Shown here: piece after piece, positions 128 through 14,384 of the stretch
How the letters are laid out: every line of letters starts with the position of its first letter
Numbering within the stretch: the first letter of the stretch is position 1
Virus record (IMG/VR): IMGVR_UViG_3300045965_000031
Location: 1 to 36,966 of that record
Source of the DNA: a virus
Reading direction: 5' to 3' (one strand)
Length of the DNA: 36,966 nt
Notes under the pieces: model-generated
The model's database searches: none
The model's input: only the letters and a program-made list of their open reading frames with translations
What the model was told of the DNA's origin: nothing
Made by a program: the position numbers and the translations under genes

Positions 128-450
128 TGGTCAATCTGCGTTTGCCCGAGCAGCTCAAGCATATCGTTTTCATGGCGCAGAATGACGACGGCGACGACGC
201 GAAAGCCAATCTGCGTCGTGGGCTCAATCATCTGATCCGCCGTCACGGCATCGTGCGCGTGGCCGAGGTGCCGCAGGGTTTCAAGGACGTGAACGACGTC
301 GCGCAGCACAACGAGCGAGTCCTGGCTGCGCGATTCCGAGAGGTGACCGACCCGGCCGCGGATTGCAACGGACTTCCAACCCCTGCCGTTGAATCACACG
401 ACCCGGCCGGGTCGGTCGCCGCCCCGATGCAGAGCGAGCGTTCGGCATGA
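1..450 (+). CDS. DNA primase, Toprim domain (3' part; gene begins at 36084)
   Basis: C-terminal 149 codons of a 401-residue primase-like protein whose first 252 codons lie at the right edge of the window (ATG 36084). This part holds the Toprim fold. The acidic motif VTEGIEDG has its Glu at residue 269 of the joined protein. The second motif, MAQNDDGDD, has its acidic residues at 314-317, and a KDVND motif follows. These match Toprim primases of phages that make RNA primers at the fork. The stop overlaps the start of the helicase gene (ATGA, 447-450), so the two are translationally coupled and probably act together. Any gene call beginning at position 37 is only the truncated frame. Confidence 0.85.
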   Translation, partial: ATKLAEAPPDDIVIVTEGIEDGLTMACAEPAWRVIAAVSLGNVVNLRLPEQLKHIVFMAQNDDGDDAKANLRRGLNHLIRRHGIVRVAEVPQGFKDVNDVAQHNERVLAARFREVTDPAADCNGLPTPAVESHDPAGSVAAPMQSERSA

Positions 451-2390
451 GCGCCGACGAGCCCGCCGGCCCGCCGCCGCCGGTCGACGGTGCGACCGTG
501 CACCACCTCGCCGACTTCGTACAGAAATCCGGCGAGCGCACCGAGCCCGCGCCCGAGCCGGCGCCCAAGGCCGAGCGCAGCCGGCGCAAGCCCAAGGATC
601 CGGCGCCCGACTCGGCGCCAGGCGACGCGCCGCCGGTTATCATTCGCTACCCGTACAAGGACCCGAAGAACGCCGACGGACTTTGGGATGATTGCCCGGT
701 GCAGCCGCTGGGCGTGAACGGCGGCGACGCGCATTACCTCGACGCGCTCGGGCAGTATCGCGTGTTGAGCGCCGCCGATCACAGCCGGCTCGGGCTGATC
801 AAGCTGTTCGCGCCCAAGAGCGGCTATCTGCTCGAGCGCTGGCCGCGCATCAAGGACGGCGAGGTCAAGGGCTTTGCGCCCGAGCTGGCGCAAGGCGACA
901 TGCAGGACGCCGCGGCGCGCAAGGGCATCTGCAACCCCTCCAATATCCGCGGGCCCGGCGCCTGGCGCGGCGCCGGCGACAGCCTGATCTGGCATTGCGG
1001 CGACGCCATCCTGATCGACGGCCAGGAGCACAAGCCCGGGCTGATCGACGGCTATGTGTATCCGGCCGGCAAGAAGCTGCTGCGCCCGGCGCCCGCGCCG
1101 GATCCGGCCGCGATCGACGAATTGCGCCGCCTGCTGCAGGCCTGGAACTGGCAGCGCGACGAGCTGGCCGTGCAACTGCTGCTCGGCTGGATTGCCGCCG
1201 GCATGCTGGGCGGCGCGCTCGACTGGCGCCCGAACATCTGGATTACCGGCGACTATTCGACCGGCAAGAGCACCCTGCATGACGTGCTGAAGCACGTCAT
1301 GGGCCCGGAGGGCATGATTGCCGTGGCCGACACTACGGCCGCCGGCATCTACCAGAAGCTCGGGCACTCGACTCTGCCGGTCGCGGTCGACGAGCTCGAG
1401 AACGAAACCGACAACAGCAAAGCCGAAGCGGTGCTGAAGCTGGCGCGCAAGGCGAGTTCGGGTGCCGTCATGCTGCGCGGCGGCAGCGATCACAAGGGCA
1501 CCGAGTTCCTGGCCCGCGCCTGTTTCATGTTCTCGTCGATCCTGCTGCTCGGCCTGCTGCCGGCCGACCGCTCGCGGCTCGCCATCCTCGAGCTAAACCC
1601 GCTCGGCGATCGGCAAAAGCCGCCGATCGACCCGAAGCGCCTGGCCGAAATCGGCACACATCTGCGCGGCCGGCTGGCGCGCAATTTCGGGCGGCTGCTG
1701 CCGACCTTCAACTTCTACCGGGCCCAGCTACCAGGCTTGAGCGGACGCAGCGCGGACCAGTTCTGCACCCTGCTCGCCTGCGCCGACCTGGCGCTCGGCG
1801 ACGCGACGCCTGACGATCCCCAGGCGGTCGAGCCCTACGTGTCGGCGCTCGTCGCCATGCGGCTCGAGCACGAAAGCGACGAGCTGCCCGAGTTCCAGCG
1901 CGCGATCGACCATCTCGAGACATCGACCGTGCTGCGCGACGGCAAGCCGCGCACCATCGGCGAGTGGATCCATCTGCGCGAAAAGCAGGTCGAGGCCGAC
2001 GAGGTGCTGGGTGCCTATGGCTTGAAGATCATCTGGCAATCGCCCGGCCTCGATGAACAGGGCAAGCCCTTGCCGGTCGAGCGCTACCTGTTCGTGGCGA
2101 CCGCGCACCAGGCGCTCGCCAAGCTGTTCGAGAATTCGCGCTGGCGTTCGCCGGCGGGGGTTTCAGGGGTATGGACCCAGGCCCTTGCCCGTTCTTACGC
2201 GCCGCTTGCCGACAACAATGGCGTGGCCGTGCTCGACCGCGCCGGCCAGCCGGTCATACGCCACGCCTTGCGTAATGTCCGCACCTGGCTCGAGGGGCGC
2301 TGGCAGCGCGGCACGGCGGTGCCTTGGGCGCTGGTTCAGCAGCCGACCGATGCACACGAGCAACAGCCGATGCAGGCGGGCAACAAATGA
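447..2390 (+). CDS. Phage replicative helicase/ATPase (P-loop)
   Basis: A 647-residue protein starting at an ATG that overlaps the primase stop. The first ~70 residues are rich in Pro, Ala and Lys and look disordered. A Walker A motif, GDYSTGKST, lies at residues 268-276. A Walker B-like strand, LPVAVDELEN, has its Asp-Glu at 315-316. A hydrophobic block around SSILLLGLLPADRSRL then resembles the arginine-finger region of superfamily 3 or primase-associated ATPases. Pairing with a Toprim primase is typical of phage replication modules and supports DNA unwinding at the origin. Helicase activity is inferred from the motifs and the neighbour, and the exact ATPase clade is uncertain. Confidence 0.75.
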   Translation: MSADEPAGPPPPVDGATVHHLADFVQKSGERTEPAPEPAPKAERSRRKPKDPAPDSAPGDAPPVIIRYPYKDPKNADGLWDDCPVQPLGVNGGDAHYLDALGQYRVLSAADHSRLGLIKLFAPKSGYLLERWPRIKDGEVKGFAPELAQGDMQDAAARKGICNPSNIRGPGAWRGAGDSLIWHCGDAILIDGQEHKPGLIDGYVYPAGKKLLRPAPAPDPAAIDELRRLLQAWNWQRDELAVQLLLGWIAAGMLGGALDWRPNIWITGDYSTGKSTLHDVLKHVMGPEGMIAVADTTAAGIYQKLGHSTLPVAVDELENETDNSKAEAVLKLARKASSGAVMLRGGSDHKGTEFLARACFMFSSILLLGLLPADRSRLAILELNPLGDRQKPPIDPKRLAEIGTHLRGRLARNFGRLLPTFNFYRAQLPGLSGRSADQFCTLLACADLALGDATPDDPQAVEPYVSALVAMRLEHESDELPEFQRAIDHLETSTVLRDGKPRTIGEWIHLREKQVEADEVLGAYGLKIIWQSPGLDEQGKPLPVERYLFVATAHQALAKLFENSRWRSPAGVSGVWTQALARSYAPLADNNGVAVLDRAGQPVIRHALRNVRTWLEGRWQRGTAVPWALVQQPTDAHEQQPMQAGNK

Positions 2391-2394
2391 CCAC

Positions 2395-2435
2395 AAAATG
2401 CTGCACTGCCGCGTTAAAATGCTGCACTGCCGCGT
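2395..2435. repeat. Two-copy 21-bp tandem repeat
   Basis: A 20-bp unit beginning AAAATGCTGC occurs at 2395-2414 and 2416-2435, separated by one base. It starts five bases after the helicase stop and leads into the nested inverted repeats. A period of two helical turns suits a protein-binding site, but function is unknown. Confidence 0.85.
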
Positions 2436-2441
2436 CAGGCT

Positions 2442-2702
2442 ACGGACTTCATGTAACATCTGAAGTCCGTGGACTTCGTCAATCGTTGTAACAACTTAAG
2501 GCCAAACGGACTAAACGGACTAAACGGACTCCCTCGCGCGTATATACAGCGCGAAACGAGCACCACGAATCACCCGCACCCTTGTTGTGCAGAATTCTCT
2601 TACGCGCGAGGCGAGTCCGTTTAGTCCGTTTAGTCCGTTTGAACCTAACAAGTTGAAGTTAAAGATGAATTCTACGGACTTCAGATGTTACATGAAGTCC
2701 GT
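2442..2702. repeat. Outer inverted repeats of nested dyad region
   Basis: Arm 2442-2470 is the exact reverse complement of arm 2674-2702 (29 bp; one flanking base also pairs). Each arm is itself a hairpin: ACGGACTTCA, a 9-nt loop, then TGAAGTCCGT. The arms bracket a second, inner pair of inverted repeats. The core ACGGACT occurs ten times between 2442 and 2702, ordered forward-reverse, three forward, three reverse, forward-reverse. The symmetry suggests a replication origin or a cooperative operator. The region separates replication genes from terminase genes. Confidence 0.9.
2503..2641. repeat. Inner inverted repeats with 3+3 iterons
   Basis: The left arm 2503-2542 holds three head-to-tail copies of AAACGGACT (2504, 2513, 2522) followed by a CTCGCGCGTA block. 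The right arm 2601-2641 is its reverse complement with a single inserted G, holding AGTCCGTTT at 2614, 2623 and 2632. The centre, 2543-2600, is a 58-bp single-copy stretch. Nine-base spacing puts successive copies slightly less than one helical turn apart, as in many iteron arrays. Confidence 0.9.
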
Positions 2703-2772
2703 AAAGTGTTGTGGTGAATGTCGGGCGAGAGGAAACTGGCGCAAATGGCTGAAAAACCGTTGTTTTGGCACC

Positions 2773-2781
2773 TTATCCACC
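2773..2781 (+). other. DnaA-box-like nonamer
   Basis: TTATCCACC matches eight of nine bases of the bacterial DnaA box TTATCCACA. It sits about 70 bp right of the nested dyads. Alone it is weak evidence; next to the iteron-like repeats it slightly favours an origin function for the region. Confidence 0.35.
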
Positions 2782-2808
2782 GCGCCCGCTGCTGCAGGGC
2801 CCAGGATC

Positions 2809-2835
2809 GGTTGCGAACGCGAGGCGTTCGCAACC
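2809..2835 (+). promoter_or_regulatory. 12-bp perfect hairpin just upstream of the terminase-region start
   Basis: GGTTGCGAACGC, loop GAG, GCGTTCGCAACC: a perfect 12-bp stem ending immediately before the GAGG ribosome-binding site (2836-2839) of the gene at 2846. No T-run follows, so it is not a standard terminator. It may protect or attenuate the message, or tune ribosome entry. Confidence 0.6.
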
Positions 2836-2845
2836 GAGGTGCGCC

Positions 2846-3487
2846 GTGATCGACCGCCGGCCGGATCCGACGCGGCCCGGGCTCACCGCCGCGGCCGAGG
2901 CCGTGCTGCCCGAGGCGCTCGAGGCGCCGATCGAGGCCGAGGCCGAGCAGCTCGGCCTGCTGCCGCTATCGCCAGCCCGCAACGACGCCGGCCAGGCGGT
3001 CAACCGCCATGGCCGTCCGGTCGGCAGCCGGGCGAAACGCACTGAAGCCTGGGTCGATTTCCTGCTGTCGCGCTATCGCTCGCCGCTGGTCGGCATGGCC
3101 GAGCTCTACTCGCGCCCGGTCGCCGAGCTGGCCAAGGAGCTGGCCTGCAGCACGCATGAGGCGATGCAGCTCCAGCTCAACGCCATGCGCGACCTGGCGC
3201 CCTACCTGCACCAGCGTCTGCCGCAGGCGCTCCAGGTCCAGGTCGAGAGCGCCATTCCGCTGGTCCTGGCGGTCATGCCGGCCGGCGCGCATGCCGCGGG
3301 CAGTATCGAGCAGGATCAAGACCTTATCCCGCTGCTGCCGGGCGAAATTGCACGCGGCGAGTTGCACGCGTCGCCGAATGGCGAGGCGAAACAAGGGGAT
3401 AGCGCCAACGGGCAATTCCGTAGCCAGGAACCGCCGGAGCCCGAATCGCCGGCTGCGGCGCCGCCGGCGCGCGAGCCCGAACCATGA
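2846..3487 (+). CDS. Putative terminase small subunit / DNA-packaging protein
   Basis: A 213-residue protein. I chose GTG 2846 because GAGG lies six bases upstream; an in-frame ATG at 2765 would run through the hairpin. A central conserved-looking block includes GRPVGSRAKRTEAWVDFLLS and a helical stretch with SRPVAELAKELACS, which resembles proteins encoded just before TerL in other podoviruses. The C-terminus is Pro/Glu-rich and probably disordered. Small terminases recognise packaging DNA and load the large subunit. The call rests on position and partial resemblance, not on a clear HTH signature. Confidence 0.5.
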   Translation: MIDRRPDPTRPGLTAAAEAVLPEALEAPIEAEAEQLGLLPLSPARNDAGQAVNRHGRPVGSRAKRTEAWVDFLLSRYRSPLVGMAELYSRPVAELAKELACSTHEAMQLQLNAMRDLAPYLHQRLPQALQVQVESAIPLVLAVMPAGAHAAGSIEQDQDLIPLLPGEIARGELHASPNGEAKQGDSANGQFRSQEPPEPESPAAAPPAREPEP

Positions 3488-3738
3488 ACCGCCCGAGCTG
3501 CTCGAGCCGCACCACCCGCAGGCTGGTCGGCGCCCCGGTCGGCCTGGCGGCTCGCGCCCGCCGGCCGGCCGGGCCGTCGCCAACCCTGGCGCGGCCGGCC
3601 GGCGGTTTGCGCGCCAGCCCAGGGCGCGGCCGGGGGGGCCTTGACAGGCCGCGGCGTGTAAGGAGCCCGGCATTCGACCGCGCCCGCTTACCTGTGCGGA
3701 AAAACTCATGCGCATGGGGGTGGGGGTCCGGGGCATGA
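3484..3738 (+). CDS. Possible small Arg/Pro/Gly-rich protein
   Basis: An 84-codon frame whose ATG overlaps the previous stop (ATGA) and whose own TGA overlaps the ATG of TerL at 3735. This perfect two-sided coupling is the reason to list it. The product is very rich in Arg, Pro, Gly and Ser and has no recognisable fold, which is also what a chance frame in GC-rich DNA looks like. It may serve mainly to carry ribosomes from 3487 to the TerL start. I do not recognise the protein. Confidence 0.35.
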   Translation: MNRPSCSSRTTRRLVGAPVGLAARARRPAGPSPTLARPAGGLRASPGRGRGGLDRPRRVRSPAFDRARLPVRKNSCAWGWGSGA

Positions 3739-5228
3739 CCACGGTCAAGCCGGATCCCTTCACCGGGCCGCCGCCCGCCTCGCTCGACATGACCAGCTTT
3801 GCCTTCCGGGCGCCCGGCCCGGTGTGCAACGCGTTCTTCACCGACCGCTCGCCGGTGAGCTGCATCATGGGCCCGGTCGGCAGCGGCAAGACATCGGCGA
3901 GCCTGCTCAAATCCGTCTGGGTCGCCGCCGAGCAACCGCGCTCGCCGATCGACGGGCGGCGGCGCTGCAAGTTCGCCGTGATCCGCGACACCTATCCGGC
4001 GCTCGAGAAAACCACGCTGGCGACATGGTTCAACTGGATCCCGCGCAGCGCCGGCCAGTTCCGCGCCGAGCCGCCGCCGACGCATTGGCTCGTGTTCGAC
4101 CTGGGCCCCGCCGGTCTGGTCGACCTCATGGTCGAGTTCATTGCGCTCGGCGAGCACCGCGTCGAGGACGTCATGCGCGGCTGGGAGGGCACCGCGAGCT
4201 ATCTCAACGAGGCCGACCGCCTGCCGCCCGACGTGCTCACCTATGTGCGCTCGCGCGTCGGGCGCTACCCGCCCAAGTTTCACGGCGGCTCGCGGCCCGG
4301 CATGGTGTGGTGCGACATGAACGCGCCCGACACGGAAAACTGGACCTATGACAGCTTCGTCGCGCAGCGCCCGGCCGACTGGAAATTCTTTCGCCAGCCG
4401 CCCGGGCTCGATCCCCGGGCCGAGAACGTCAAGCAATTGCCCGAGGGCTATTACGACAACCTCATGAGCAATGCCGACTGGTGGGTGCGTCGTTTCGTGC
4501 GCAACGAGTTCGGCTACTCGCGCGACGGCAAGCCGGTGTTCCCGGAATTCAACGACGCGCGCCACGTCAGCGAGCACGAGCTGGCACCGATCCCCGGCCT
4601 GCCGCTGATCATCGGCGCCGACGCCGGGCTCAGGCCGGCCGGCGTCATCGCCCAGCGCGACGCGTTCGGGCAATGGCGCGTGCTCGACGAGCTGGTCGGC
4701 GAGGACATGGGCGCGCACCGCTTCGCCGAGCAGCTCGCGCGCAAGCTGGCCGAGCGCTATCGCGGTTTTCCGCTCAAAGCCTTTTGCGATCCGACCGCCG
4801 AGGCGCGCTCGGCCACCGACGAGGGCACCTGGGTCGAGGGCGTGTTCGGCGAATCCGGCATTCGCTTCCGCGCCGCGCCGACCAACCTGCTGCAGCCCCG
4901 GCTCGAGGCCGTGCGCGGCGTGCTCAACCGCACCATCGACGGCACAAGGCCGGGCCTCATCCTGTCGCCGCGCTGCAAGGTCATGCGCAAGGCGATGAAT
5001 TCCGGCTACCGCTATCGCCGCTTCTTGCTCGCCGGCGAGAACCGCTACGACGACCGGCCCGACAAGAACGAGTTTTCGCACCCCGTCGACGCGCTGCAAT
5101 ACGCGCTGCTCGGCGGCGGCGAGTTTTTCGAGGTGCGCAAGCGCACGCAGCAACACCGCCAGCACGCGCGCCCGATCGTCGCGCGCCACGAGTTCGACCC
5201 GTTCGACCACCGGAGGGCCCGCGCATGA
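3735..5228 (+). CDS. Terminase large subunit (TerL)
   Basis: A 497-residue packaging motor from ATG 3735 (an upstream ATG at 3708 would add nine residues). The N-terminal ATPase has Walker A GPVGSGKT at residues 46-53 and a Walker B-like strand ending NEAD, with its Glu near residue 159. The C-terminal RNase H-like nuclease shows acidic motifs IIGADAG (Asp296), FCDPTAE (Asp352) and HPVDALQYAL (Asp452). It pumps DNA into the prohead through the portal and cuts the concatemer. The start is coupled to the upstream frame by ATGA, and the stop overlaps the next gene in the same way. Confidence 0.92.
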   Translation: MTTVKPDPFTGPPPASLDMTSFAFRAPGPVCNAFFTDRSPVSCIMGPVGSGKTSASLLKSVWVAAEQPRSPIDGRRRCKFAVIRDTYPALEKTTLATWFNWIPRSAGQFRAEPPPTHWLVFDLGPAGLVDLMVEFIALGEHRVEDVMRGWEGTASYLNEADRLPPDVLTYVRSRVGRYPPKFHGGSRPGMVWCDMNAPDTENWTYDSFVAQRPADWKFFRQPPGLDPRAENVKQLPEGYYDNLMSNADWWVRRFVRNEFGYSRDGKPVFPEFNDARHVSEHELAPIPGLPLIIGADAGLRPAGVIAQRDAFGQWRVLDELVGEDMGAHRFAEQLARKLAERYRGFPLKAFCDPTAEARSATDEGTWVEGVFGESGIRFRAAPTNLLQPRLEAVRGVLNRTIDGTRPGLILSPRCKVMRKAMNSGYRYRRFLLAGENRYDDRPDKNEFSHPVDALQYALLGGGEFFEVRKRTQQHRQHARPIVARHEFDPFDHRRARA

Positions 5229-5422
5229 TCGGCCTGCTTGTTACGCTGTTGATCGTCGTCATCGTCATCGGCGCCATCTGGTATCTGCTCGAGCTGCTGC
5301 CGCTCGATCCGACATTCAAGCAGGTGGCGAAAGTCATCCTGCTGGTGATCATCGTGCTGATTCTGATTTCGGCATTGCTCGGCTATCTGCCCGGCCCGGG
5401 CCTGCCGAAATCGTGGTGTTGA
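5225..5422 (+). CDS. Small two-TM membrane protein (Thivi_2564-like; holin candidate)
   Basis: A 65-residue protein coupled to TerL by ATGA. Two strongly hydrophobic stretches (about residues 3-22 and 37-56) flank a short polar linker, LELLPLDPTFKQ. The pattern resembles the small Thivi_2564 family membrane proteins of bacteria and phages. Length and topology also fit a class II holin, although the gene sits far from any lysozyme. Location is the inner membrane; the role in lysis is only a guess. Confidence 0.65.
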   Translation: MIGLLVTLLIVVIVIGAIWYLLELLPLDPTFKQVAKVILLVIIVLILISALLGYLPGPGLPKSWC

Positions 5423-5427
5423 GATCC

Positions 5428-6288
5428 ATGCCAAAATTCTTCTGCATCTATCACGGCAATTGCGCCGATGGATTCGCTTCGGCATGGATCGTGCGCCATG
5501 TGCTTAGCGAAGAAAATGTCGACTTCCATGCGGGCGTCTACCAAGACCCGCCGCCAAAAGTGAGCGGGCGGAATGTCATCATGGTGGACTTCAGCTACAA
5601 GCGCCCCGTGCTCGAGCAGATGGCGCAATCAGCAAACGCCATTTTGATCTTGGATCATCACAAGACCGCTGAGGAAGATCTTCACGACTTGCCACCGCCG
5701 CTGCCTTTCCGGGAATGGAGAAAAAATCCGGCCGGCTGTTCGGCGCTTTTCGATCTGACCAAATCCGGCGCGGGCCTGACCTGGGATTACATGTGCGTTG
5801 GATACCGCCGCCCTGATCTGATCAACCACATCGAGGATCGTGACCTGTGGCGCTTTGCGTTGGAAGGAACGCGGGAGATTCAGGCGAATGTCTTTTCGTG
5901 GCCCTATGATTTTGAGGTTTGGGATCGGCTGATGCGGACGCCAGTCAAGAATCTACGGGCCGAAGGCGAGGCCATCGAGCGGAAACATTTCAAGGATATC
6001 GATGAGCTGATTCGGGTCGTGACGCGCCGCATGAAGATCGGCGGTTACATCGTTCCGGTTGCCAACCTGCCTTACACGCTGACGAGCGACGCTGGCCATA
6101 AGCTCGCCAGCAACGAGCCCTTCGCCGCCTGCTATTGGGATACGCCCGAAGGCCGGGTGTTCTCGCTGCGCTCGCGCCCTGATGGCGTCGATGTATCGGA
6201 AATCGCCAAGCAGTACGGCGGCGGCGGGCACAAGAACGCGGCCGGCTTCCGCGTTTCATTCGATCAATTGGAGCAGTTTTTGCCATGA
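5428..6288 (+). CDS. DHH/DHHA1-family phosphoesterase
   Basis: A 286-residue protein from ATG 5428, six bases after the previous stop. Visible motifs, in order: YHGNCADGF (residues 8-16), MVDFSY with its Asp at 54, LDHHKT with DHH at 76-78, an HIEDRDLW acidic motif, and the DHHA1 signature GGGGHKNAAG at 264-273. These residues bind two metal ions in the NrnA/RecJ superfamily, which cleaves short RNAs, pAp, linear dinucleotides or ssDNA ends. By eye its G+C is clearly lower than that of its neighbours, which suggests recent acquisition. Possible roles are nucleotide recycling or removal of a host signalling nucleotide; the substrate is unknown. Confidence 0.88.
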   Translation: MPKFFCIYHGNCADGFASAWIVRHVLSEENVDFHAGVYQDPPPKVSGRNVIMVDFSYKRPVLEQMAQSANAILILDHHKTAEEDLHDLPPPLPFREWRKNPAGCSALFDLTKSGAGLTWDYMCVGYRRPDLINHIEDRDLWRFALEGTREIQANVFSWPYDFEVWDRLMRTPVKNLRAEGEAIERKHFKDIDELIRVVTRRMKIGGYIVPVANLPYTLTSDAGHKLASNEPFAACYWDTPEGRVFSLRSRPDGVDVSEIAKQYGGGGHKNAAGFRVSFDQLEQFLP

Positions 6289-6533
6289 GCGGAGATCCAC
6301 GCATGAGCAAGACCGACCAGGCCGAGCTCGACGCCGCATGGCCGAAGGCCGCCATGCCGGAAATCACCGTGCCGCTGAAAACCGTCATGATGCAGTGGCT
6401 CGAGGAAACCGCCCGGCTCAACAACCGCACCCCGGTCGAGGAAGTGCAGCGGCTGATCGCCGAAGCCTGGCGCCTCGACCCGCACCGGCTCGCCAAGGGC
6501 GCCAGCGAGCCCTACCGGAAATCGCCGCCATGA
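6285..6533 (+). CDS. Small protein with ribbon-helix-helix-like pattern
   Basis: 82 codons from ATG 6285 (ATGA overlap with the DHH gene). A second ATG at 6303, eight bases after GGAG, would give 76 residues and may be the real start. The core has a short strand, EITVPL, then two helices (MMQWLEETARLN and PVEEVQRLIAEAWRL), an order that resembles MetJ/Arc-type DNA-binding proteins. No specific family is recognised, so a regulatory role is inference. Confidence 0.55.
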   Translation: MSGDPRMSKTDQAELDAAWPKAAMPEITVPLKTVMMQWLEETARLNNRTPVEEVQRLIAEAWRLDPHRLAKGASEPYRKSPP

Positions 6534-6919
6534 GCGAGGCCGACCGGCTGCGCGCCATCGCCGCGCTGTGCCACGAGGCGCAACGCGTGTGGTGCACGCT
6601 CAATGACTGGCTGCCGGTCATGCCGGCCTGGGAGGAAGCGCCGGCGGAACTGCAGCGCGAGGCGCTCGACACCGTGATCAAGCTGATCAAGCACCCAGGC
6701 ATGAGCGCCGCCGATTTCCACAACGATTCGGTCGAGCTCGCCCGCCGCCGTGGCTGGACCTATGGGCCGGTGCATGATCCCGGCCTGAAGCAGACACCGC
6801 ACCTGCTGCCCTGGCACAAGCTGGGTTATGCGCAGCAATCGCTCGACGGGCTGGTCGTGGCCATCGTGCGGGCCACCGAAACCGGCATCGCGCCGCCGGT
6901 CGAGGGCGTGGCGCAATGA
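6530..6919 (+). CDS. RyR-domain-like phage protein
   Basis: A 129-residue protein from ATG 6530, overlapping the previous stop. The segment from FHNDSVELARRRGW through WTYGPVHDPGLKQTPHLLPW resembles the RyR repeat domain found in many small phage and bacterial proteins, whose hallmark is GW-x-YGPV-x-D. The domain is often linked to nucleotide or ligand sensing, but phage versions are uncharacterised. It belongs to the accessory run between TerL and portal. Confidence is moderate for the domain and low for any function. Confidence 0.55.
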   Translation: MSEADRLRAIAALCHEAQRVWCTLNDWLPVMPAWEEAPAELQREALDTVIKLIKHPGMSAADFHNDSVELARRRGWTYGPVHDPGLKQTPHLLPWHKLGYAQQSLDGLVVAIVRATETGIAPPVEGVAQ

Positions 6920-7170
6920 GCGACCGGCGCATGCCATCGGGCCTGATGTTCCGCGAGGCCGCGCGCCACGCCCAGGCCTGGTGGGATTTGCGCGGGCGTT
7001 TCCTCATCCGCAATCCCGAGTTTCAAGACCCCGACTTGGGCGTGCCGTCGGGCATCCTGCGCGGCCTGCCGTTCATGCAGCTCACCCGCAAGGAGATCCT
7101 GCGCGTGGTCGAAGTCTGGGATCAGAACCACGGGCCGGCGCTGGTCGCCGGCCGGCCGGCGACGGAGTAG
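6916..7170 (+). CDS. Hypothetical phage protein, 84 aa
   Basis: Coupled to the previous gene by ATGA and followed after a 5-bp gap by the next GTG start. The sequence is Trp/Arg-rich in its first half (HAQAWWDLRGRF) and has an amphipathic helix, LTRKEILRVVEVWDQN. No TM segment, signal or known family is visible. Dense packing with neighbours supports it as a real gene. Confidence 0.6.
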   Translation: MSDRRMPSGLMFREAARHAQAWWDLRGRFLIRNPEFQDPDLGVPSGILRGLPFMQLTRKEILRVVEVWDQNHGPALVAGRPATE

Positions 7171-7175
7171 GCGCC

Positions 7176-7640
7176 GTGCGGGCCCGGCTCAGCTTCGATC
7201 GTCCGCGCATTGCCGCCTGGCTGTGCCGCTTTCCCGCGCTGCCGCGCTATCCGCGCGCCGATGAAATCGTCGTCGCGCTCGAGCTCGACGACCAGCGCCG
7301 GCCGGGCGCCCGCGGCTATGTCTGGTACAGCGCCATGCAGGAGCCGAAGGGTGCGCTGTGCCTGCATCTGGCGATCGACTGCCGCCTGCACGGGCTGTGG
7401 TCGCGCGAGGTGCTGCACGATATCGAGCGGCTGCCGTACCTGCTCGGCTATCGCTGGCTGTTCGCCGGCGGCATGACACCGCCGGCCGAGGCCATGGCGC
7501 AGGCCGCCGGCTGGCAGCAGGCGCCGGGCGGCATCTGGTACACCGAACTGCCGGGACTCTGGGGGAGTTATCATGGGCCAGATCATCAAAGCGATTCTGT
7601 CGCCGATCACCTCGCTGGTATCGGCGTTCACGGGCGGTGA
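7176..7640 (+). CDS. Putative GNAT-like acetyltransferase fold protein
   Basis: A 154-residue protein from GTG 7176, chosen because GGAG lies eight bases upstream at 7164-7167. The pattern LHGLWSREVLHDIERLPYL, then GYRWLFAGGM and a final AMAQAAGWQQ, resembles the CoA-binding loop, helix and C-terminal 'ageing-loop' of GNAT proteins encoded near portal genes in some podoviruses. Canonical acetyl-CoA residues are not clear. It overlaps the next gene by 68 bp, and its last ~22 residues share DNA with that gene. Confidence 0.5.
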   Translation: MRARLSFDRPRIAAWLCRFPALPRYPRADEIVVALELDDQRRPGARGYVWYSAMQEPKGALCLHLAIDCRLHGLWSREVLHDIERLPYLLGYRWLFAGGMTPPAEAMAQAAGWQQAPGGIWYTELPGLWGSYHGPDHQSDSVADHLAGIGVHGR

Positions 7641-7950
7641 CAAGGACGAGGACCGCATGCCGGAACCGGCGGCGCCGCAGCGCGATGCCGCGCTCGACGC
7701 GCAGCTCGCGCAGACCCAGGCCGACGCGCTGGCCGCGCGCCAGGCTGCCGACGAGCAGGCCCGCGCCGAGCGCGAGAGCATCGCCAAGCAGCTCGCCGAG
7801 AGCGAGGCGCGTGAGGCCGAGCGCGAAACCAAGGAGAAGGCCGCTGCCGCCGAGGACACCCGCCAGCGCGCTCTGCGCGCCCGCGGCCGGGCGTCGCTGA
7901 TCGCCCAGGGCAGCACCGAGGAAGGCGTCAAGACCACGTTCGGAGGCTAG
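7573..7950 (+). CDS. Coiled-coil virion-region protein upstream of portal
   Basis: A 125-residue protein from ATG 7573, with a strong GGGGGAG site five bases upstream. The N-terminus, MGQIIKAILSPITSLVSAF, is an amphipathic hydrophobic helix. A long Ala/Glu/Arg coiled coil follows (about residues 38-105). The C-terminus has RGRASLIAQG, a motif I associate with small proteins encoded before podovirus portals. It probably belongs to head assembly or the head-tail junction; the exact role is unknown. It ends three bases before the portal start. Confidence 0.65.
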   Translation: MGQIIKAILSPITSLVSAFTGGDKDEDRMPEPAAPQRDAALDAQLAQTQADALAARQAADEQARAERESIAKQLAESEAREAERETKEKAAAAEDTRQRALRARGRASLIAQGSTEEGVKTTFGG

Positions 7951-13848: not shown

Positions 13849-14057
13849 GCGACGAAGAATTGATCGACTATCTGGGACTCGGCGACGAATCCACGGCTGC
13901 GCAAATCATCGCCAAAATTGCGCCCGAAAAACGGGCTGTGTACGAGCGCATGGCGCAAGTCGAGTTCGAGATCAAACTCTGGCAGGAGGGCGTAGCCCCG
14001 AAGCCGGCCGGCGTCATTCCATGCGGGCCGCGCGAAGTGAAGGAAGCGGGGGAATGA
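13845..14057 (+). CDS. Hypothetical protein, 70 aa
   Basis: ATGA-coupled to the previous gene. An acidic N-terminus (MSDEELIDYLGLGDES) precedes a basic helical centre and a Pro/Gly-rich end. No known domain or TM segment. The coupling on both ends argues that it is translated. Confidence 0.5.
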   Translation: MSDEELIDYLGLGDESTAAQIIAKIAPEKRAVYERMAQVEFEIKLWQEGVAPKPAGVIPCGPREVKEAGE

Positions 14058-14224
14058 CGACGCTTTCCAGGCGCATCAGCCCGAGGGAGCGCAGCTCGGC
14101 GCGATTCGTCGTGCTGGCGCGGCACAGGCTGCAAGACGCCTTTATTGAAAGCAATCTGACCCAAATAGAGGTTAACGTGGCCGGCAAGCCGGTGCTGCCA
14201 TGCGCAAAATCCGTGATCGTGTGA
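14054..14224 (+). CDS. Possible small basic protein, 56 aa
   Basis: ATGA-coupled to the previous gene. The short product is rich in Arg and Ser (MTTLSRRISPRERSSARFVV) with no recognised fold. Coupling supports it, but its composition is close to chance, so it is listed with low confidence. Confidence 0.4.
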   Translation: MTTLSRRISPRERSSARFVVLARHRLQDAFIESNLTQIEVNVAGKPVLPCAKSVIV

Positions 14225-14234
14225 GCGACGCGCC

Positions 14235-14384
14235 ATGATCCGAAAAACCGCCAAGGGCTACGAGGTGCGCTCGGAGAAGGGCAAGAACCTGGGCGGCCCC
14301 TATCGTAGCCGCGGCGAGGCCGTGCGGCGCTTGAAGCAGGTCGAGTATTGGAAAAATCGTAAGCGGAAATCTTTGACGCGATGA
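14235..14384 (+). CDS. Small basic phage protein, 49 aa
   Basis: ATG 14235 to TGA 14384, overlapping the methyltransferase start by ATGA. The product contains GYEVRSEKGKNLGGPY and EAVRRLKQVEYWKNRK. It resembles a widespread short phage protein with the pattern 'V-x-SE-x-GKxLG-x-Y-x-S-x-EA-xx-RL-x-QVEYFK'. It is short enough to be missed by gene finders with a 60-codon cut-off. Role unknown; it may bind nucleic acid, given its charge. Confidence 0.65.
   Translation: MIRKTAKGYEVRSEKGKNLGGPYRSRGEAVRRLKQVEYWKNRKRKSLTR

Follow-up and report, generated by a model that had tools for sequence, protein, structure and literature searches.

The block of nested inverted repeats at positions 2442–2702 of the DNA analyzed here (hereafter the window, that is, the whole stretch of 36,966 nucleotides covering positions 1 to 36,966 of the IMG/VR virus record IMGVR_UViG_3300045965_000031) is most probably a bidirectional replication origin, which would be read by the C-terminal domain of the helicase encoded just upstream (447–2390). 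We favor this reading because the layout of the block recurs in helicase relatives, because the model of the helicase is similar to the self-loading helicases of replicons, and because the iterons and the helicase C-terminus co-vary; it is from these observations that we infer binding by the helicase, replication from the block and its direction, the assembly of a double hexamer, and the site of melting. A preliminary description, made from the sequence alone, had left the choice between an origin, a plasmid-like copy control, and a packaging or recombination site: in this list, the same recurrent layout, helicase model, and co-variation strengthen the origin, and packaging comes out weakened, if still alive.

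The block carries 10 exact copies of ACGGACT in perfect mirror order (2442, 2464[-], 2506, 2515, 2524, 2614[-], 2623[-], 2632[-], 2674, and 2696[-]), separated by spacings of 22-42-9-9-90-9-9-42-22, which bears out the 10-copy nest first noticed in the sequence. The entire window holds 13 copies when 2.3 are expected, a number that none of 100 dinucleotide shuffles attained. The copies are distributed into four sets (table 1) and, as the preliminary description had it, the outer 29-bp arms are exact reverse complements that each form a hairpin with a 10-bp stem, and three mirror-ordered iterons lie in each inner arm; the 58-bp center that it proposed is right provided that the CTCGCGCGTA/TACGCGCGAG dyad is counted, the iterons alone delimiting 83 bp. 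The claim that the whole block is close to a mirror of itself also stands, with 84 of 130 positions complementary across the axis, against a mean of 32.5 and a maximum of 49 in 2,000 shuffles. Folded as single-stranded DNA, the block reaches -94.4 kcal/mol (z -18.6). A 33-bp part of the right spacer (2641–2673) ranks within the top 0.18% of contig segments of its length for AT content, and the center, at 59% GC, has a longest alternating purine–pyrimidine run matched by 0.19% of contig segments of equal length and a best 30-mer alternation matched by 7.1% of them. The GC skew of the stretch was uninformative.

Table 1. Features of the window around the repeat block (strand "." for elements given without orientation).
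Feature	Positions	Strand	Basis or remark
Phage primase, C-terminal (TOPRIM) end, cut by the contig start	37..450	+	Toprim_3 8.9e-10; phrog_510 DNA primase
Predicted self-loading hexameric helicase, proposed initiator	447..2390	+	phrog_21086/35358; AF2 model; co-variation with iterons
Outer-left set	2442..2470	.	Two opposed iterons, forming a hairpin
Left spacer	2471..2505	.	35 bp, 43% GC
Inner-left set	2506..2530	+	Three iterons, 9-bp period
Center	2531..2613	.	83 bp; dyad 2533-2542/2601-2610; 14-nt alternating purine–pyrimidine run 2535-2548
Inner-right set	2614..2638	-	Three iterons, 9-bp period
Right spacer	2639..2673	.	35 bp, 29% GC (contig, 67%); candidate site of melting
Outer-right set	2674..2702	.	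Hairpin of two opposed iterons; matches the outer-left set exactly as its reverse complement
Small-terminase-like gene (named by position)	2846..3487	+	Homologs directly upstream of TerL in relatives; outside the proposed origin
Terminase large subunit (TerL)	3708..5228	+	phrog_2, 5.2e-19

This block starts 52 bp past the helicase stop, within a gene order that runs from the primase end through the helicase, the block, the small-terminase-like (hereafter TerS-like) gene, TerL, and a DHH-family gene to a T7-like portal and scaffold. In G002, a close relative in which the primase gene is whole, this gene also carries DUF7146. The TerS-like gene matches no PHROG family and likely starts at the GTG at 2846, an earlier TTG at 2765 being possible.

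Poor conservation of the dyads in close relatives would have spoken against the significance initially given to this symmetry, but both G002 and L006 keep the block, and in the same orientation as in the window. G002 departs from it at 8 of 261 bp, and four of these differences make up two A-T to C-G pairs at mirrored positions (2513/2631 and 2522/2622). Such mirrored changes show that the arms evolve together, and their support goes to joint evolution only, not to cruciform formation, because one homogenizing event among the repeats could yield all four. A DNA search of phage records with the block or with the first 12 kb of the window returned no match.

The preliminary description had also proposed looking for the same architecture downstream of helicase genes in other phages, and it is indeed found at the loci of helicase relatives. 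Using an alignment of four helicases as query, we retrieved 30 viral loci and scanned each of them in full, with no motif presumed, for exact copies of one 7-mer present at least twice per orientation within 420 bp; a scan restricted to downstream sequences misses arrays lying 1–3 kb away, which the whole-locus scan recovers. At least six copies of one 7-mer were found in 26 of the 30 loci as compared with 10 of 320 simulations, and at least seven copies in 21 loci as compared with 1 of 320, the 30 loci being partly nonindependent (L082/L090 and L086/L087 share arrays, and L071/L073 are close). Eight stretches of these phages were scanned as controls, and clusters of seven and of six turned up in one stretch each. 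The layout is thus conserved despite divergent iterons: the word varies by phage or small group (e.g., GTGCAAC, GGTTTCA, ACAAGAC, GGGACAC, and CCATACC), and the common plan reads outer set, spacer, inner set, center, inner set, spacer, outer set. Relative to the helicase gene, the array lies directly 3' in 16 loci, further 3' in 10, and upstream in one (L069), and none was found in the remaining three (L070, L075, and L080). With regard to L069, its order is rearranged over positions 493–7652 into array, TerS-like gene, primase, helicase, and TerL. A G-rich GGGTNNGGGGG-like string was also seen just before the outer-left set in 11 loci (L064–L066, L068, L071, L076, L081, L083, L084, L088, and L091) and is absent from the window.

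Outside the window's clade, arrays were also found in named phages and in contig G001. In phi1422, whose primase belongs to PHROG families shared with the window's clade, the array (about 14,006–14,312 of its record) sits directly behind the primase/helicase gene with spacings of 9-10-15-63-8-90-8-63-15-10-9; in G001, it follows a DUF927 helicase gene, and in Acjo_20, it precedes the primase gene. KLER1-1 has a weak array behind its primase gene; in MQ-4, an array of a 6-mer follows the primase gene at a distance of 1.6 kb. No array was found in PY223 (L092), from which the plan is absent, and ZRG1 (L093) has copies of CCGTTAG, the mirror plan being absent.

Searches that started from the motif gave more mixed results. 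Scanning viral contigs for three tandem ACGGACT copies yielded 11 stretches, two of which are known relatives (G002 and the L006/L012 contig). Most of the other nine look like protein-coding repeats, for which reason a shared heptamer alone means little; L040 is the exception, being noncoding and mirror ordered. Long arrays of a ACGGACTGC-like 9-mer, apparently protein coding (Thr-Asp-Cys type), were encountered in several phage contigs (L035, L036, L039, and L041–L044). Bacterial genomes scanned for a pattern of two CGGACT pairs placed in inverted order yielded 17 loci; in six of them (five from Myxococcota and one from Synergistales), primase or primase-helicase genes lie no more than a few kilobases away. 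Eight Bacteroidales loci (L046, L054, and L056–L061) were rejected as origins, as they look like multicopy, REP-like intergenic CGGACT inverted repeats, and three of these loci lie in a single MAG. No primase was seen in the stretches examined of L045, L048, and L052; the last was discarded as an array inside an ORF, and the other two show the plan, L045 with an integrase gene and L048 with an SNF2-type helicase gene and spacings nearly those of the window.

Across arrays, the geometry itself shows regularities. Among 171 cases of neighbors sharing the same orientation, 89 are spaced by 8–9 bp, 63 by 11–13 bp, and 8 by 10 bp; by inspection, the short steps belong mostly to inner sets and the long ones mostly to outer sets, and outer-to-inner distances group near 41–44 and near 48–53 bp. 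Expressed as helical phase, a step of 8–9 bp is one turn minus about 60 degrees and a step of 11–13 bp one turn plus about 60 degrees. As for base composition, array centers average 63% GC, and right spacers have a mean of 35% GC versus 65% for their loci, with a deficit of at least 15 points in all 20 arrays measured. For purine–pyrimidine alternation, 24 of 28 centers rank among the top 5% of the locus they belong to, most of them being its single most alternating stretch, in a test whose centers were chosen with the sequences already in view and include several from near relatives; the four others are those of the window (7.1%), phi1422, and the Myxococcales loci L055 and L049. Alternating centers may form Z-DNA. 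It is tempting to see in these regularities a widespread class of phage origins of fixed geometry, in which inner sets (8–9 bp steps) would face each other across a Z-DNA-prone core with outer sets (11–13 bp) about four or five turns outside, the two pitches would match opposite-handed hexameric staircases, so that the DNA would spell out the assembly of an MCM-like double hexamer and a strained core, and the unlike spacers would set the side of melting; we regard this generalization as speculative and rather doubtful.

On the protein side, the helicase has no Pfam match, and its AF2 model (pLDDT 83.4) has as best VIA match the SCCmec helicase Cch (5dgk, Z 17.1, rmsd 5.9, 439 residues), followed by SaPI5 Rep (7ola, Z 16.6) and MCMs, when Foldseek matches include poxvirus D5/E5, SaPI5 Rep, and NrS-1. 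It is thus predicted to be a self-loading hexameric helicase of the Cch/SaPI Rep/MCM-like kind. Beyond residue 478, the model is covered by Cch and by few other VIA matches, and the fold of the C-terminal part is for this reason barely tested by the comparison. This C-terminal domain (about residues 501–632) is nonetheless the part that we propose as the iteron reader, on the basis of its co-variation with the iterons.

In this regard, we compared iteron similarity with protein similarity by Mantel tests over 23 phages, leaving out loci with no array (L070, L075, and L080), near copies (L062, L073, and L016), and truncated, near-copy, or duplicate loci (L015/L033 [MT835534], L084, L087, and L090). 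Iteron similarity was correlated with that of the helicase C-terminus (Spearman 0.262, p = 0.0035) and of the helicase core (0.184, p = 0.044), and neither with that of the N-terminus (-0.042, p = 0.67) nor with that of the TerS-like gene (0.065, p = 0.22). The signal of the C-terminus persisted given the core (partial r 0.204, p = 0.021) and given the TerS-like gene (0.254, p = 0.008). These correlations are weak (r about 0.2–0.4), plain Pearson coefficients were significant for all proteins compared, the TerS-like gene included (0.277, p = 0.0005), and a cruder earlier version based on single 7-mers gave smaller values in which the C-terminus did no better than the core.

If the block is an origin, its initiation could proceed as follows. 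The C-terminal domains of helicase subunits would bind the iterons, and the inner sets, which face each other, would bring two hexamers head to head around the center, with the outer sets holding or loading additional subunits. Strain would then open the AT-rich right spacer and perhaps also the alternating center, upon which the hexamers would move onto single strands and depart in opposite directions, priming being ensured by the TOPRIM primase encoded just ahead of the helicase.

The main alternative, which we consider unlikely, is that the block is a packaging start (pac or cos): the small terminase, whose gene follows just downstream, would bind the iterons, and the large terminase would cut at or near the center. 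Its best argument, adjacency to the TerS-like gene, is also the strongest result against the origin, and it is for this reason that the co-variation and outside-clade tests were made. Across the window's clade, wherever the TerS-like gene can be placed, the array precedes it by no more than about 0.8 kb; this adjacency also holds in 10 loci whose array is remote from the helicase, and the array of L069 remains with the TerS-like gene although TerL has moved. Small terminases are moreover ring-forming DNA-binding proteins. However, the neighborhood of terminase genes expected of a pac or cos site is not seen in phi1422 and G001, where the small terminase gene lies 7 and 9 kb off, respectively, and the arrays adjoin the helicase, and the Myxococcales and Synergistales loci have replication genes beside the array, with no terminase seen there. 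Nor does the site change with the small terminase as a packaging site should, iteron similarity carrying no TerS-like signal when the helicase C-terminus is controlled for (partial r -0.008, p = 0.54). The window's clade is known from metagenome contigs alone, in which the array is internal; the phi1422 genome is described as circularly permuted (PMC3391216). A regulatory operator, a transcription terminator, or a recombination/inversion site built of repeats is highly improbable: a repressor or recombinase could recognize the inverted arms and perfect hairpins, which could also fold, but no gene for either protein lies consistently beside the arrays in the stretches examined, the block has no Rfam match and a constant orientation in the window, G002, and L006, and at least 10 sites, arranged on a conserved plan of four sets, are more than an operator usually has.

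Considered as an origin, the block is best compared with those of SaPIs, in which iteron sets flank an AT-rich stretch. Both have short iterons directly downstream of a self-loading helicase gene, the helicase model of the window matching SaPI5 Rep. Unlike these staphylococcal islands, the window is from a phage of high-GC hosts, and its sites are grouped into four sets nested in mirror order, the outer ones being hairpins, with the right spacer as the AT-rich part. We therefore keep the block apart from plain SaPI/Cch-type origins, usually understood as two sets flanking an AT-rich center, as its own center is not AT-rich. Two hexameric helicases seated on opposed sites, as we propose here, are known from origins of the SV40 T-antigen type, although their sites are unrelated to ours, and iterons read by a phage primase-helicase are, as commonly described, found at the ori and crr of phage P4. 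According to one report (PMC7581432), SaPI Rep and Cch2 recognize, through a C-terminal domain, iterons directly downstream of their gene, Cch2 binding direct repeats downstream of its own operon, when T-antigen recognition resides in an N-terminal domain, at the opposite end of the protein. SCCmec Cch is the best structural match of our helicase model, but the putative origin of Cch2 counts three iterons of 5 nt within 23 bp of direct repeats (PMC7581432), as compared with about 10 or more mirror-ordered sites here. The PLE satellite likewise offers an iteron origin in a phage-related element, yet with a RepA_N protein for which no helicase or primase activity is predicted (PMC7145576). Neither the four-set mirror layout nor the repeat words found a match in the literature searched, subscription papers being mostly outside its reach.

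What began as one odd palindrome would thus become a searchable origin class, whose binding word varies by phage or small group when its geometry recurs, allowing origin calls even for phages that metagenomes alone have revealed. Divergent words on a recurrent plan offer a natural series for deciphering the code by which Cch/MCM-like self-loading helicases recognize DNA and for studying how a pair of hexamers comes together and melts the duplex, and the isolated phages with arrays (phi1422 and Acjo_20, with weaker cases in KLER1-1 and MQ-4) render this class testable.

Several minor elements also accompany the block. TGTAACA or its complement occurs in both outer hairpin loops and in the left spacer (2452–2458, 2487–2493, and 2684–2690) and is near the iteron word of Acjo_20 and phi1422, and a short CTTA element lies in the left spacer of many arrays, about 7–14 bp before the inner-left iterons (e.g., L064, L066, L083, L086, and the window at 2494–2499). 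Farther downstream, between TerL and the portal gene, the DHH phosphoesterase-type gene (5413–6288, phrog_4771) has a homolog beside the primase in L088. Between the helicase stop and the block, two tandem AAAATGCTGCACTGCCGCGT copies (2395–2435; 20 bp, 21-bp period) are kept in G002, as is a perfect 14-bp hairpin with a 3-nt loop (2807–2837) just before the GTG at 2846, which might hide the ribosome site of the TerS-like gene.
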